This document shows positions 46,642-61,459 of a stretch of 64,000 nucleotides of DNA, piece after piece. The position numbers were made by a program, and so were the translations under genes. The number at the start of each line of letters is the position of its first letter. Within the stretch, counting starts at the first letter, position 1. The notes under the pieces are model-generated. The model was not told where the DNA came from. It saw nothing but the letters and a program-made list of their open reading frames with translations, and ran no database searches. Origin of the DNA: Coprococcus eutactus (GTDB lineage: Bacteria > Bacillota > Clostridia > Lachnospirales > Lachnospiraceae); the NCBI RefSeq assembly GCF_025149915.1, contig NZ_CP102278.1:721001-785000 (forward strand), in the 5' to 3' direction.

Positions 46642-48258
46642 TTATTTGTTCATGTGCTCAAGAGAGGCAGCTACAAATCCTTTGAAAAGAGGATGTGGCT
46701 TGTTTGGTCTTGACTTGAATTCAGGATGAGCCTGGGTTCCGATGAACCATGGATGATCTGGAATCTCGATCATCTCAACGATGTGTCCGTCAGGTGAGAG
46801 ACCGACCAGCTCCATTCCATTGTCTGAGAGAGCCTGTCTATAATCGTTGTTGACCTCATATCTGTGCCTGTGGCGTTCGTGGATGTATTCTGTTCCGTAC
46901 AGCTTGTACGACTTGGAATCCTTTGCAAGTACACAAGGGTAAGAACCCAGTCTGAGAGTTCCGCCGAGGTCTGTTACATCGTGCTGGTTTGGCATGATAT
47001 GTATGACCTGATGGAATGAGTTTGGGTTGAATTCTGAGCTGTGTGCATCTGAATAGCCAAGTACATTTCTTGCAAATTCAACTATGGTAAGCTGCATTCC
47101 GAGGCAGAGGCCAAGGTAAGGAACATTTTGTGTACGAGCGTAATTAATGGAAGTGATCATGCCCTCGATACCTCTGTCGCCGAATCCACCAGGAACGATG
47201 ATTCCATCCACATCGCCGAGCATCTCGGAAACATTGTCCGGGGTTACGAGTTCGGAATCGATCCATTTGATCTCAACCTCAGCTTTGTTAGCGACTCCAG
47301 CATGCTTCAGGGATTCCACAACTGATATGTATGCGTCATGCAGTGAAACGTATTTGCCAACAAGGGCAACCTTCACAGAGGTGGTTGGATGTTTCCATGC
47401 ATCTATCATATCTGTCCATTCTTTCCATGCATGATCATCTGGTGGGGGACATTCCATGTCAAGACATTCGCAGACAACGTCGGCGAGATGCTCTTTCTCC
47501 ATTGCAAGAGGGACCTCATATAATACGTCTACATCAAGGTTCTGAATGACATTTCTGCTTGGAACGTTACAGAACAGAGCAATCTTGTCTTTTATTCCTT
47601 GATCCAGAGGAAGGTCAGAACGGCATACAAGTATATCCGGCTGGATTCCCATTCCCTGAAGATTTTTGACGCTGGCCTGCGTAGGCTTTGTCTTGATCTC
47701 TCCAGAAGCCTTGAGATAAGGAATGAGGGTAACATGTATCATGATGCAGTTGTTAGGACCTACCTCGTGCTGGAACTGTCTGATAGCCTCAAGAAATGGC
47801 TGGCTCTCTATGTCACCGACAGTACCACCTATTTCGATGATGGCAACCTCGGTGCCCTTGGCATCGGGATTCCTGTAAAATCTGTCCTTTATCTCATTGG
47901 TGATGTGGGGAACAACCTGGACGGTGTGTCCGCCAAAATCACCGTGTCTTTCTTTCTGAAGAATGCTCCAGTAAACCTTACCGGTTGTTACATTTGAATT
48001 CTTGTTGAGACTTTCATCAATAAAACGCTCATAGTGTCCGAGATCTAGATCGGTCTCAGCACCATCATCCGTTACAAACACCTCGCCGTGCTGAATGGGA
48101 TTCATTGTGCCGGGATCAATGTTGATATATGGGTCGAATTTCTGACTGGTCACCTTGTAGCCTCTCATTTTGAGAAGACGACCAAGGGAAGCAGCAGTAA
48201 TACCCTTACCGAGTCCTGATACAACACCACCAGTAACAAACACATACTTGACTGCCAT
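46642..48258 (-). CDS. pyrG: CTP synthase
   Basis: A 538-residue enzyme that converts UTP to CTP with glutamine and ATP. The N-terminal synthetase has '[13 protein letters not shown]' and '[38 protein letters not shown]'-type blocks. The C-terminal class I glutaminase has 'VPGGFGDRG', the nucleophile Cys in 'YLGLCLGMQ', and 'AHPEFKSRP'. The start is ATG 48258 behind GGAGG; a GGAGG-containing ATG at 48273 would use its own RBS as codons. A sigma-A promoter lies 42 bases upstream; I see no attenuator. Confidence 0.97.
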
Positions 48259-48299
48259 AATTTTATCCTCCATAAAAACTTAAAAAACTACATTAACAT

Positions 48300-48492: not shown

Positions 48493-50304
48493 ATGAGAAC
48501 TGTAAAATTCATACATATATCAGATGTACTCCTGGGAATAGATGTGGATAAGGAAACATCCTGGGGGGACGACAGGAAAAAGGAGATATATGAAACATTT
48601 GAAAAGATAATAGAGCGCGCAACAGATATCGGAGTGGATTTTCTGTTTATATCCGGCAATCTGTTTGATCATAAGCCTGATGACGGGGAACTTGAGTGGC
48701 TTGACGGTGTGCTTGGGAGCCTTAAAGACACAGTGGTTATATATGCCGCAGGATTTAACGACAATCTTGGTGGCGGGGCGGCGATCATGTCCTACAGGTT
48801 CAGATCCTCCGTGTGTGTCATTGGCAGTCCGGCGATGGGCAGCTATTTGTCACTGGGCGGAGGGTACAGGGATGCACAGGCCACGATGGCGATGGATCAC
48901 CTGCATTTTCCTGAGAAAGACCTAGATGTGTATGGCGTGAGCTATTTTGATGGCAGGATGGATGCGCATGCCATAGATGAAGCAGAGCCGGATGACAGAG
49001 CTGTGCACAATGTGCTTGTGGCCTGTGGCGGTGACAGACACAGGATGCCCGTTAATTGGCACAGTCTGCATGACAGGGGTTTTGATTATATAGCTATGGG
49101 AGGCCGCCAGAAATATTCGGTAGAGATACCGGGCAAGGTCTATTATCCGGGAAGTCCAGAGGCGGTGTCTATGGAATCCACCGGTCCACATGGGTATATA
49201 TATGTAGAGATAGGATCCGATGGGACAAAGGCAGAGTTTGTGCCTGTGGCGGCAAGGGAATACAAGCGGATCGATTATCATGTAGATAATTATACAAGGG
49301 ACGGCGAGCTCGGCGAAGCGATAGAGAGACTTCTTAATATTGAAGGAGTCGAAAATATATACACTATCAATATAGTGAGGGAAGGTGGCTGTGAGAAAAG
49401 CTTTGATATTTCAGAAATGTTGTCGGAATACAGAATCCTGGCGGTGAATGGAGAGGAATTTGAGCGGACGGATTACAGCGAATATGTAAAAGCCAACAAA
49501 AACACGGAATTTGGGAAACTGCTAGAGAAACTGGACGATTCAGATATTGATAGCAGCAGTGGAGCAAAAATGGCTGTGGATAGGATGATAGATATGTCTA
49601 TGCTCTATTGTAAAAATAATAAGAAAATGGGAAATGATGTATTTCGTGAAATGAAAAGGCAGGTAATGAGCTTGTTGGAAATAGAATGTCATGCCTATGA
49701 AAATCAAAGAGATATTAAGGAATATCTTGAAATTAGAAATGATTATATCATCAGTCCTGATGTTTTAGAACAACTCAACCTAGTATGGGCAAAAGAAAGG
49801 GCGATGGAGCTGGAGATTACAACACTTAGAAAACGAGCAGAAGAGTTGCCCCGAAAATACAGAAGAGAATGGATCCTTATGGGAATCAGAGCGACAGTCA
49901 TACCAATGATGACGATGGGAATTTTGTCAATAATATTGTTGTCTGCCACATTGAAAAGAACAGGAGGTTCGTTTCCTGATGATAGATTGGTGTATATCCT
50001 AATATTTATGATGCTAGTCATTTGGGGGTTTTATTGTGCGGGATATGTATTTGCTAAATACAGGGGAATTATAAAAAAAGGCGGCAAAACCAGACTGCAT
50101 GAAGAACTTGAACATAATCAGATATGCTTAAATGCCCTGTGTGCAGACCGTGATGCAATTCACAAAAAAAGGACAGAGCTGCAGATGCTTGATGGACGCA
50201 GAAGGGATATGTATGAAAGCATGAATGACAGGGAGAAAAAACTGGATGTGAAACTACAGAAGCTCCGTCTCGTAAGGTCTGCGTTGGACATGCTACGTGA
50301 ATAA
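48493..50304 (+). CDS. SbcD/YhaO-like protein with dead metallophosphoesterase site, coiled coil and two TM helices
   Basis: Residues 1-230 clearly follow the SbcD/YhaO exonuclease fold. However, every metal-site motif except the first Asp is altered: SDVLLG for SDxHLG (L13 for His), GNLFD for GDLFD (N56), GFND for GNHD, VACGGD for VAHGGD (C168), and GGRQK for GHIHK (G184, Q186). About residues 330-465 are helical. Two TM helices follow (about 475-530), then a coiled coil to the end. No ATPase domain is present. GC also falls within the gene (32/60 at 48661-48720, 21/60 at 49621-49680). Monocistronic, function unknown. Confidence 0.7.
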   Translation: MRTVKFIHISDVLLGIDVDKETSWGDDRKKEIYETFEKIIERATDIGVDFLFISGNLFDHKPDDGELEWLDGVLGSLKDTVVIYAAGFNDNLGGGAAIMSYRFRSSVCVIGSPAMGSYLSLGGGYRDAQATMAMDHLHFPEKDLDVYGVSYFDGRMDAHAIDEAEPDDRAVHNVLVACGGDRHRMPVNWHSLHDRGFDYIAMGGRQKYSVEIPGKVYYPGSPEAVSMESTGPHGYIYVEIGSDGTKAEFVPVAAREYKRIDYHVDNYTRDGELGEAIERLLNIEGVENIYTINIVREGGCEKSFDISEMLSEYRILAVNGEEFERTDYSEYVKANKNTEFGKLLEKLDDSDIDSSSGAKMAVDRMIDMSMLYCKNNKKMGNDVFREMKRQVMSLLEIECHAYENQRDIKEYLEIRNDYIISPDVLEQLNLVWAKERAMELEITTLRKRAEELPRKYRREWILMGIRATVIPMMTMGILSIILLSATLKRTGGSFPDDRLVYILIFMMLVIWGFYCAGYVFAKYRGIIKKGGKTRLHEELEHNQICLNALCADRDAIHKKRTELQMLDGRRRDMYESMNDREKKLDVKLQKLRLVRSALDMLRE

Positions 50305-50320
50305 AAATGATCATTGGGGG

Positions 50321-51268
50321 TTAAGGCAGTCTTGTCTGCTCCGCCTGTATTATGGCTTTTTCGTTTCTGAATGTCTGAATAGCGACCATTTGAATAGAGC
50401 CGAGTATGAGCAGAAAGCCAGCCAGATCCATTCCGGAAAATTTTGTACCGAGAACCAGCCATGTCAGAAGAGCGCTCGTAACAGGTTCAACTGTGACAAA
50501 CAGACTCGCTTTGACACTGCCAAGTATACTGATTCCTATGCCGTATATAGTAAATGGAATGAGTGAGCCGACAATAGCAACAGCAAGGGAAGCTGTGAGT
50601 ATCTGTATGTTCATATGGGGGAAGGTAAATGTCCTAGTTACAAGTAACAGGATGATGGAAGCGAATAGAGAAGCCCATCCTATAACGTTGACAAGCCCAT
50701 ACGAATTGTATAATTTCTGCGGATAAAGACAATATATAGTAAAGCAAACGGCTGATATAAGCCCCCAAAAAAGAGCAGGGAATGATATGGCAAGAGAATT
50801 AAGTCTGCCGTGTGTTGCAATCAGAAATATCCCGGCAAATGCGCATATTACGGATATGGTCTCGTAATTTTGTGGTTTTTTATGCATGAATATAGCAGTG
50901 TAAATCAAAATCATAATGATATATGTAAACTGGATGACTGTGCCTGTGGCTGCATTTGAATGCTCGATTGAGGCAAAGTAGGTGAATTGTACGCCCATCA
51001 CTCCGGTGAGGGAGAAAAAAATCAGAGATATAACACTTTTAGGCTTTGACCATATGGACAAAGCCTTTTTATCTTTTTTTAGTGCAGAGATAAAGAGTAA
51101 TACTATACCGGATATAAACTGGCGAATGATAGATAACTGGATTGAATTCACATCGGATGCCTGAAAGATATATTGTCCCAGAACTCCGCTGATTCCCCAC
51201 ATGATTCCGCATGAAAGCACCAGTATGATCCCGAATTTTTGTGAATGAGCAGTTTGTGTATTAGTCAT
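50321..51268 (-). CDS. EamA (DMT) family transporter
   Basis: A 315-residue protein with ten TM helices in two EamA repeats ('CGIMWGISGVLGQYIF' in the first, 'SLIPFTIYGIGISILGSVKASLFVTVEPVTSALLTWLVLG' in the second). The family exports amino acids or other metabolites; the substrate is unknown. AAGGAGT RBS. It is convergent with the gene ending at 50304, only 16 bases away, and no terminator hairpin is seen between them. Confidence 0.9.
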   Translation of the reverse strand: MTNTQTAHSQKFGIILVLSCGIMWGISGVLGQYIFQASDVNSIQLSIIRQFISGIVLLFISALKKDKKALSIWSKPKSVISLIFFSLTGVMGVQFTYFASIEHSNAATGTVIQFTYIIMILIYTAIFMHKKPQNYETISVICAFAGIFLIATHGRLNSLAISFPALFWGLISAVCFTIYCLYPQKLYNSYGLVNVIGWASLFASIILLLVTRTFTFPHMNIQILTASLAVAIVGSLIPFTIYGIGISILGSVKASLFVTVEPVTSALLTWLVLGTKFSGMDLAGFLLILGSIQMVAIQTFRNEKAIIQAEQTRLP

Positions 51269-60346: not shown

Positions 60347-61459
60347 ATGGGAACAGAAAATGTTTTCCAGGAAAATCAGGAATATCTTATAAAGGCAAGA
60401 GAGCTGGTGACAGCTATAGATGATATGGAGGATGAACTTGACCAGGCAAAGGCGCTTCAGAAGCGTACTTCCAGGAGTTTATCCCAGGAAGAGAAAGGTC
60501 TGGCGGACGAGGTTGGTTCAACACTCAAAAATAGAAAAATAGAGATAGAAGATGGATATGATGCAAGACTTGCGGAGAACGGTGCAAATATAAGAAAGCT
60601 TCAATCCAAGAAAGACAAAAAGAAGACTGAACGCATGGGAAACAGGATAGAGAGCGAGACAGCCGCGCTCAATGAGGACAACAGGCAGTTGCGACTTGAG
60701 GCAAAGGAATTGTTCAAACAGAATCATGTATCAGCGTTCTGTAATAGTGGATTCTTTTACTGCATGTTTGCACCGAGCGGCGCAGGGGAGATCATACGGC
60801 TTATTTTGCTTATAATACTGTTTTGTCTTGGTATCCCGGCGTTGGTTTCTGTGACACTTTCGTATACAGTGTTTGCGGATGGAGTGGATAAGCTTGTATA
60901 TGTGGTTATAGGACTTTCTATTATAATATTTGAATTCATTGTCTATTTCATTGTGTTCAATATGGCGAAGGTGAGAAACTTGGATGTTGTACGCGAGGGA
61001 CGACAGATACGAAATAAGGTGAGAGCAAATGACAGACAGATCAGAGCCATAAGAAACTCTATAACAAGAGACAAGGATGAGAGTGTTTACAATCTCGAAA
61101 AGTATGATGATAGACTCAAGGAACTTGAAGAAGAGAGAGAAGATATCAGCAACCGCAAGATAGAAGCCATAAAGGTGTTTGAGAATGAAACGAAGCAGGT
61201 GATTGTGGCAGAGATAACAAGCCGCAGACAGCCAAAGATAGACTCCCTAAAGGAGGAATTGAAGTCTCTTGAGGAGAAGATCAATGCAATGGAGAGCAAG
61301 CTGGCTGATATGCGGAGTCATCTCACTGATAGCTATGTCACATTTCTTGGAAAAGATCTTTGTACAGAAGAAAAACTTACAGATCTTATATCCATTATGG
61401 AAGAAGGTACAGCAAGTACGGTGTCGGGGGCTATAGAAGTATACAAGGGAGAGGATTGA
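60347..61459 (+). CDS. Coiled-coil/two-TM/coiled-coil protein, unknown
   Basis: A 370-residue protein. The N-terminal ~125 residues are strongly charged coiled coil. Two TM helices follow (about 148-172 and 178-203), then a basic patch and a second long coiled coil (about 215-330). No catalytic motif is seen. The helix-hairpin-helix layout resembles the C-terminal part of the SbcD-like protein at 48.5-50.3 kb, but no sequence match is evident to me. RBS AAGGAGG. Convergent with yyaC, 39 bases apart; no clear terminator between. Confidence 0.7.
   Translation: MGTENVFQENQEYLIKARELVTAIDDMEDELDQAKALQKRTSRSLSQEEKGLADEVGSTLKNRKIEIEDGYDARLAENGANIRKLQSKKDKKKTERMGNRIESETAALNEDNRQLRLEAKELFKQNHVSAFCNSGFFYCMFAPSGAGEIIRLILLIILFCLGIPALVSVTLSYTVFADGVDKLVYVVIGLSIIIFEFIVYFIVFNMAKVRNLDVVREGRQIRNKVRANDRQIRAIRNSITRDKDESVYNLEKYDDRLKELEEEREDISNRKIEAIKVFENETKQVIVAEITSRRQPKIDSLKEELKSLEEKINAMESKLADMRSHLTDSYVTFLGKDLCTEEKLTDLISIMEEGTASTVSGAIEVYKGED

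Follow-up and report, generated by a model that had tools for sequence, protein, structure and literature searches.

Can the framework of a nuclease subunit be maintained at a bacterial membrane after its active site has gone, or is such a gene simply decaying? The question is raised by one ORF in a window of 64,000 nucleotides of the Coprococcus eutactus chromosome (NZ_CP102278.1, positions 721,001 to 785,000), which an earlier note, made from the letters of the DNA, had described as an SbcD/YhaO-type protein with altered metal motifs joined to a coiled coil and transmembrane (TM) helices. The ORF had been placed exactly, at 48493 to 50304 on the + strand, with an ATG start and 603 codons for 603 amino acids. 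Our analysis indicates that its product, P0001, is probably a maintained, membrane-tethered pseudo-nuclease and a putative noncutting scaffold. We refer to its family as f600, a name coined here, and to its genome as G000. The ORF stands alone in the window, with divergent pyrG upstream and a converging EamA-type transporter gene downstream. The features are as follows.

46642 to 48273, - strand: pyrG (CTP synthase), divergent neighbor, name confirmed by search
48493 to 50304, + strand: putative membrane-tethered pseudo-SbcD of family f600, 603 aa, the whole ORF
48493 to 49212, + strand: SbcD/Mre11-type phosphoesterase domain, residues 1 to 240, from the Mre11-structure profile match over residues 4 to 226 and from the alignment
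49213 to 49527, + strand: capping domain, about residues 241 to 345 (approximate bounds), with the f600 signature R296 and C300, from alignment counts
49591 to 49887, + strand: stalk 1, about residues 367 to 465, helical by eye, from the sequence and a profile resemblance to the SbcC stalk for which controls score nearly as high
49897 to 49953, + strand: TM helix 1, residues 469 to 487, from hydropathy
49987 to 50043, + strand: TM helix 2, residues 499 to 517, from hydropathy
50068 to 50301, + strand: stalk 2, about residues 526 to 603, helical by eye, from the sequence
50321 to 51268, - strand: EamA-type transporter gene, convergent, downstream of the f600 gene in the window

Whether P0001 has the SbcD fold at all is not obvious from the single sequence, which scores 13.2 bits against Pfam Metallophos (under the cut-off of 21.5), matches the NCBIfam Mre11 model at an E value of 1.1e-5 (far under the cut-off), reaches 20.3 against TIGR00619 (cut-off, 77.65), and finds its best PDB chain at an E value of 9.4e-4. 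The missed TIGR00619 cut-off is a weak test, because an intact 386-aa paralogue in the same genome misses it too (50.0). The earlier note had called for a profile search and had made its reading depend on a metallophosphoesterase fold; by sequence profile, the Mre11 phosphoesterase domain is indeed matched, with the f600 family profile (A1) aligning to the solved Mre11 structure 1ii7 over residues 4 to 226 (E value, 3.9e-15). Judged from its sequence, f600 is descended from SbcD/Mre11-type proteins yet is not classed as an active one. The SbcD-like framework is longer than the 230 residues first proposed. It includes the capping domain, to about residue 345, since a 350-aa paralogue from the same genome aligns with residues 4 to 366 of P0001 at 30% identity.

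The protein is not a solitary oddity. A protein search returned at least 55 matches among 8000 candidates scored, 30 of them 586 aa or longer. A genome scan with P0001 by itself gave no relative; with an alignment as the query, the best 80 loci revealed a second f600 clade (clade B) of the same size and plan in metagenome-assembled genomes of other Lachnospiraceae, and a search from clade B added further members. Many of these relatives are metagenome derived, and their ORF calls are mechanical. The family occurs in four of five genomes of the window's genus, each time beside a divergent pyrG, and was not found in the fifth, which is 79% complete. In a tree of 51 sequences, all 17 f600 rows form one clade (100/100), and a single f600 clade is also recovered (99) in a quick tree whose 150 rows include 32 from f600. 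By these trees, f600 is one orthologous Lachnospiraceae family. Literature searches turned up no such family of membrane-tethered pseudo-SbcD proteins, most subscription papers being outside the reach of that search.

We scored eight positions of the active site, D11, H13, D56, N88, H89, H178, H204, and H206, which we take to be the metal-binding and catalytic residues of Mre11-type enzymes (D, H, D, N-H, H, and H-x-H). P0001 keeps one of the eight, D11. Every motif alteration listed in the earlier note was borne out by the alignment, with one residue misnumbered by ten: the cysteine placed at 168 is C178. All are on the + strand.

48523 to 48525: D11, the sole retained residue of the eight scored, from the alignment
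48529 to 48531: L13 in place of a metal-ligand His, from the alignment
48658 to 48660: N56 replacing a metal-ligand Asp; Asn shared by all 21 members that keep zero to two of the eight residues
48751 to 48762: G87-F88-N89-D90 (GFND) in place of GNHD, from the alignment
49024 to 49026: C178 in place of a metal-ligand His, from the alignment
49099 to 49110: G203-G204-R205-Q206 (GGRQ) replacing GHxH; G204 shared by all 21 members that keep zero to two of the eight residues

A complete set of eight residues was found in 0 of 79 distinct f600 proteins (540 aa or longer) versus 94 of 119 relatives shorter than 440 aa. This comparison set includes one fragment and, because its members were collected for their resemblance to f600, does not sample SbcD proteins at random; one protein of 447 aa and one of 473 aa belong to neither class. 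Among the 79, no residue is kept in 1 protein, one in 18, two in 2, four in 3, five in 9, six in 45, seven in 1, and eight in 0. The systematic loss of motifs claimed from the single sequence is therefore near total in the window's subclade but does not extend to most clade B proteins, which keep six of the eight residues, including every metal ligand except N88, replaced by E. The clade B pattern D-H-D-E-A-H-H-H, with GEAD for GNHD and the metal ligands otherwise kept, occurs in 25 of 39 proteins. Position 178 is Cys, Ser, or Tyr in 19 of 20 members of the window's subclade, and residues vary at positions 88, 89, and 206. Conservation of the altered residues in orthologues, proposed earlier as a check, was found at N56 and G204, which are fixed in the 21 most altered members. 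The family also has markers of its own in the capping domain: R296 in 76 of 79 proteins (the other 3 are gapped there) and C300 in 74 of 79. Position 296 is Gly in all 94 intact shorter relatives.

The membrane segments are consistent across the family. Two hydrophobic segments past residue 400 were detected by hydropathy in 39 of 39 aligned f600 members, as had been predicted for P0001, whose stalk is helical or coiled coil by eye. In ten f600 members the outer flanks on both sides of the TM hairpin carry a net positive charge, from which we judge the two hairpin ends to be probably cytoplasmic. We treat this topology as a suggestion, because the short loop is itself near neutral to slightly positive. 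Three members of 544 aa (P0143, P0145, and P0146) have apparently lost the capping domain and kept the phosphoesterase domain and the hairpin. Elsewhere in the window, positions 60347 to 61459 (+ strand) encode a 370-aa protein with a helix-two TM-helix layout by eye; it has 51 homologues among the matches listed, self and fragments included, the few that are named being Coprococcus and Lachnospiraceae, and it has no NCBIfam match at an E value of 0.001. Its similarity to the TM region of f600 is weak (E value of 1e-4, one comparison) and probably reflects composition.

Is the gene nevertheless on its way out? A lone pseudogene was considered and is ruled out by the family data. Intact motifs were found in the shorter paired relatives and in no f600 orthologue, and the copy in the window is not alone. 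A slower form of decay, in which a once-useful membrane SbcD drifts under weak constraint, deserves separate weighing. Between G000 and G202, the f600 gene has diverged more than any of the seven other genes compared (40% identity versus 72 to 95%), and such divergence, like the variable residues at positions 88, 89, and 206, would also fit weak constraint. However, the proteins are full length throughout the 79 members, positions 56 and 204 are fixed, and the family has invariant residues of its own. In clade B, dN/dS is 0.057 to 0.108 in five of seven tested pairs (the other two are dS saturated), ratios that are rough because dS is high (1.5 to 2.5), and between G000 and G202 pN (0.396) is about half of pS (0.745, near saturation). 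We consider slow decay highly improbable. The family-wide loss, the fixed replacements, the full-length ORFs, and the purifying selection in the sister clade instead support the earlier view of a pseudoenzyme.

One argument made from the window alone did not survive. The earlier note had read a drop in GC content between two 60-base windows as a sign that the two parts of the gene differ in origin. Such windows mean little, as 196 of 1066 lie at or below 35% and 134 of 1066 at or above 53.3%, but at the level of domains the step is real: GC content is 48.6% for residues 1 to 240, 43.4% for 241 to 366, and 38.3% for 367 to 603. Among 20 other long ORFs of the window, divided at matching proportions, none reaches this difference of 10.3 points, and the greatest is 5.8. 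In seven of seven tested f600 relatives the step is no more than 4.6. Because relatives of the same build lack the step and the alleles are mosaic, it does not serve as general support for two origins, and recombination between alleles in the C-terminal half is more likely to have produced it. P0004 and P0007 share 80 to 98% identity in the first 360 residues and 44 to 72% beyond, and P0003 and P0005 share 55 to 65% in the first 120 residues and 98 to 100% in the last 240. The sequences of alleles P0003 to P0008 suggest that N- and C-terminal parts have been exchanged by intragenic recombination, and some may be assembly chimeras. Mosaic alleles and fast evolution are also what one would look for in a decoy or surveillance protein directed against phages that attack SbcCD-type nucleases. 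We find this idea barely credible, given that PADLOC gave no match for P0001 or two f600 relatives, that no defense neighborhood was noticed, that the housekeeping synteny is conserved, and that some of the mosaics could be chimeras of assembly.

Active SbcD-type nucleases are linked to an SbcC/YhaN ATPase gene, and the gene neighborhoods were compared in this respect. A same-strand ORF longer than 400 aa lies within 200 bases downstream in 100 of 106 entries for 350-aa loci (not de-duplicated). For f600, 6 of 15 entries have a same-strand ORF of that size downstream (4 distinct genes), and 0 are ATPases; two of the four genes match the MATE transporter family, and two look alike by eye. A linked SbcC/YhaN gene, which the earlier note had suggested looking for, was absent from the loci that were read: the 14 distinct f600 loci, for three of which the flanks covered 1.5 kb only, include no neighboring ATPase of the SbcC/YhaN type.

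What does lie beside clade B f600 genes raises another reading, in which f600 serves a heavy-metal exporter as an accessory or metal-binding sensor, with clade B proteins still able to bind metal and the window copy a derived, metal-free remnant. Apart from N88, the metal ligands are intact in most clade B proteins, and of 10 distinct clade B loci, 7 have a P-type ATPase gene that ends 17 to 45 bases before f600; the one of these seven ATPases searched against families is of the Zn/Cd type, and an ArsR-type regulator gene (one searched) lies upstream where the locus reaches. The arrangement of P-type ATPase and ArsR-type regulator is seen in loci L050, L051, L053, and L055, where f600 is followed by a CBS-domain protein; that of L050 resembles the c-di-AMP-binding protein CbpB at 84.3 bits, below the cut-off of 125. 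In the window's own genus, an exporter gene lies 2.3 to 5.6 kb from f600 in G200 and G201, and the best exporter match in G000 and G202 is a 59% copy elsewhere in the genome. This contrast amounts to one event, however, and similar exporters are present in 134 of 150 Lachnospiraceae genomes, and in 0 of 20 exporter loci examined did f600 appear among the closest ORFs at a distance of up to 1.5 kb. The exporter being nearly universal and its loci so regularly free of f600, the adjacency may be chance synteny, and we regard a role in metal export as improbable.

The ATPase-bearing relatives offer a second place to look. The Lachnospiraceae pairs we take to be of the YhaO-YhaN kind on the basis of gene order and family matches, and the 350-aa paralogue to be of the YhaO kind on the basis of gene order. 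Among 69 distinct pairs with a complete partner ORF, the SbcD subunit keeps all eight residues in 52 and five or fewer in 17. In the 52 intact pairs, the partner carries an ABC signature of SxG (49 pairs) or SxA (3 pairs), and SxG is lost in 16 of the 17 pairs in which SbcD keeps five or fewer residues; 13 of these 16 partners retain Walker A. Of three degenerate pairs beyond this set, one has lost SxG and two have kept it, and Walker A is altered in the degenerate pair of G216. The tree places the losses mainly in two groups, one being L041/L074 and the other a larger clade, with single rows besides; the 16 SxG losses therefore represent far fewer than 16 events. G000 itself carries, outside the window, a doubly degenerate pair (L041, from G000:C1:186532 onward) and a second pair (L042) whose SbcD has all eight residues. 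At L041:4533-7294, the nuclease subunit motifs now read GSSD, MYGG, and GYLRK, and the ATPase has no ABC signature but keeps Walker A; the doubly degenerate state recurs in a larger Lachnospiraceae clade.

It is conceivable that f600 acts in trans as a regulatory subunit of the YhaO-YhaN pair of its own genome, with the SbcD folds heterodimerizing or the stalks pairing so that the complex is tethered to the membrane. A pair is present in G000 (L041) and in three other f600-bearing members of the genus, where G000 and G202 combine the most altered f600 with a pair that has lost catalytic residues in both subunits, and G200 and G201 combine an intact pair with an f600 that keeps five of eight. 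That contrast is again a single event on the tree. Across ten genomes examined, clade B f600 co-occurs both with degraded pairs (G205, G206, G207, G216, G217, G219, and G221) and with intact ones (G218, G220, and G222), and a further ten genomes with degraded pairs (G160, G204, and G208 to G215), some of them perhaps incomplete, yielded no f600. Strict coupling of f600 to degraded pairs is excluded, as both pair states co-occur with it and degraded pairs also occur without it. These comparisons of f600 presence drew on selected genomes; among 32 chosen for intact pairs, none had f600 at an E value of 1e-100. A trans-acting subunit appears unlikely, and we continue to favor a tethered pseudo-nuclease.

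Where, then, did the stalk come from? Neither ATPase half is matched by the C-terminal part of f600 (scores of 12.4 and 10.0), and Walker A, the ABC signature, and Walker B are absent. The f600 stalk matches the SbcC stalk profile with a probability of 96 and a score of 72.8, but controls score almost as high: the stalk read in reverse gives 56.0 and 58.7 in two comparisons, and a helix-TM-TM-helix family of the window that is unrelated gives 60.0. We therefore take the resemblance as indecisive. Twenty locally shuffled stalks score up to 43, and the clade A stalk alone scores 52.5 versus 49.6 reversed. In a search for end-of-stalk motifs, clade A ends resemble SbcC ends by eye and clade B ends do not.

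A clearer case comes from another genus, g103 (G102 and G450), in which one protein of 647 to 657 aa lies between asnS and nfo, the two proteins being 78% alike.

L162:2651-4594 and L200:1155-3128, - strand: g103-type fusions of SbcD and the SbcC stalk, between asnS and nfo

The names of the flanking genes were confirmed as asnS and nfo for G102 and as nfo beside the G450 fusion. In the nearest genus, g91 (G090 and G444), asnS and nfo enclose two genes instead, one for an intact SbcD (347 aa) and one for an SbcC (565 to 566 aa) whose stalk has two hydrophobic segments by eye. Residues 1 to 348 of the fusion match this SbcD at 56 to 57%, residues 580 to 633 match the SbcC stalk at 41% (E value, 1.5e-5), and neither SbcC ATPase half is matched. 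The active site of the fusion in G102 reads D-H-D-S-H-Y-Y-H. Because the g103 fusion clusters with G090/G444 and apart from f600 (100/98), it is an independent event; the f600 and g103 stalks do not match (score, 19.5). Full SbcD-SbcC fusions were suspected in six frames of 869 to 995 aa at other SbcD loci (in G321, G111, G287, G353, G402, and G113), but the three fetched (G321, G111, and G287) were each two separate genes, as was a 523-aa frame in G005. The g103 fusion makes an origin of f600 from SbcD plus an SbcC stalk plausible, and a descent of the f600 stalk from SbcC can be proposed by analogy. The earlier description of a YhaN-like plan lacking the ATPase gains support from both the architecture and this in situ fusion.

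Collectively, these observations are consistent with a model in which an SbcD/YhaO-type subunit, comprising the phosphoesterase and capping domains, was joined to a helix-TM hairpin-helix stalk of the SbcC/YhaN-partner kind, the two ATPase halves being absent from the joined build. The first step may have been a loss of catalysis at GNHD that spared the metal ligands, which is the state of the sister clade, followed in the window clade by loss of the ligands themselves. The product would be a noncutting binder or dimeric scaffold held at the membrane with both ends of its hairpin in the cytoplasm, and constraint would have moved away from the metal site toward residues such as R296 and C300 in the capping domain. 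It is possible, and we offer it tentatively, that Lachnospiraceae repeatedly convert SbcCD/YhaON-type machines to noncatalytic membrane complexes, through fusions that discard the ATPase (f600 and, independently, g103) and through joint decay of the nuclease site and the ABC signature in two-gene pairs. If this is true, the degraded pairs and the fusions would point to a conserved nonenzymatic role at the membrane, of which f600 would be the minimal, stripped-down form.

SbcD/Mre11 proteins have been studied chiefly as nucleases. A build that has no complete site, is tied to the membrane, has no ATPase motor, and has arisen at least twice suggests that the phosphoesterase-capping framework is useful without cutting. 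The f600 proteins offer natural separation-of-function variants from gut bacteria, with metal ligands ranging from mostly kept (clade B) to nearly gone (window), and paired complexes that have lost nuclease and ABC-signature residues together provide a second system in which the question can be tested.

Several known systems share parts of this plan. In B. pumilus, YhaO and YhaN are under the LexA/SOS regulon and yhaONM is a putative double-strand break repair cluster, according to PMC3896406, whose reference list equates YhaN with SbcE. With YhaO, f600 shares the phosphoesterase and capping domains (the 30% identity over residues 4 to 366 with the 350-aa paralogue), but it differs in having neither the catalytic residues nor a linked ATPase gene and in carrying about 240 extra residues with a TM hairpin. 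With YhaN/SbcE, an SbcC/Rad50-type protein with a membrane hairpin, it shares the helix-TM hairpin-helix plan; partners of 563 to 570 aa in the window's genus have two hydrophobic segments between the ATPase halves by eye. Unlike these proteins, f600 has neither ATPase half, and the homology of the stalks is not decisive. The B-subunits of eukaryotic replicative DNA polymerases are inactivated calcineurin-like phosphoesterases put to structural use in a DNA-handling complex; they belong to a different subfamily from f600 and are not known to be membrane bound. Another likeness in kind is to VPS29, which is not known to have a capping domain or a membrane stalk. PMC3101248 describes VPS29 of the retromer as a metallophosphoesterase fold that serves as a scaffold without enzyme activity and still binds metal ions at low affinity. 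VPS29 is eukaryotic and f600 bacterial, but f600 likewise appears to keep the fold, presumably as a nonenzymatic scaffold, and with its fold kept, its catalytic residues lost, and its gene conserved, it can be classed from its sequence as a metallophosphoesterase-fold pseudoenzyme that is VPS29-like in the broad sense.
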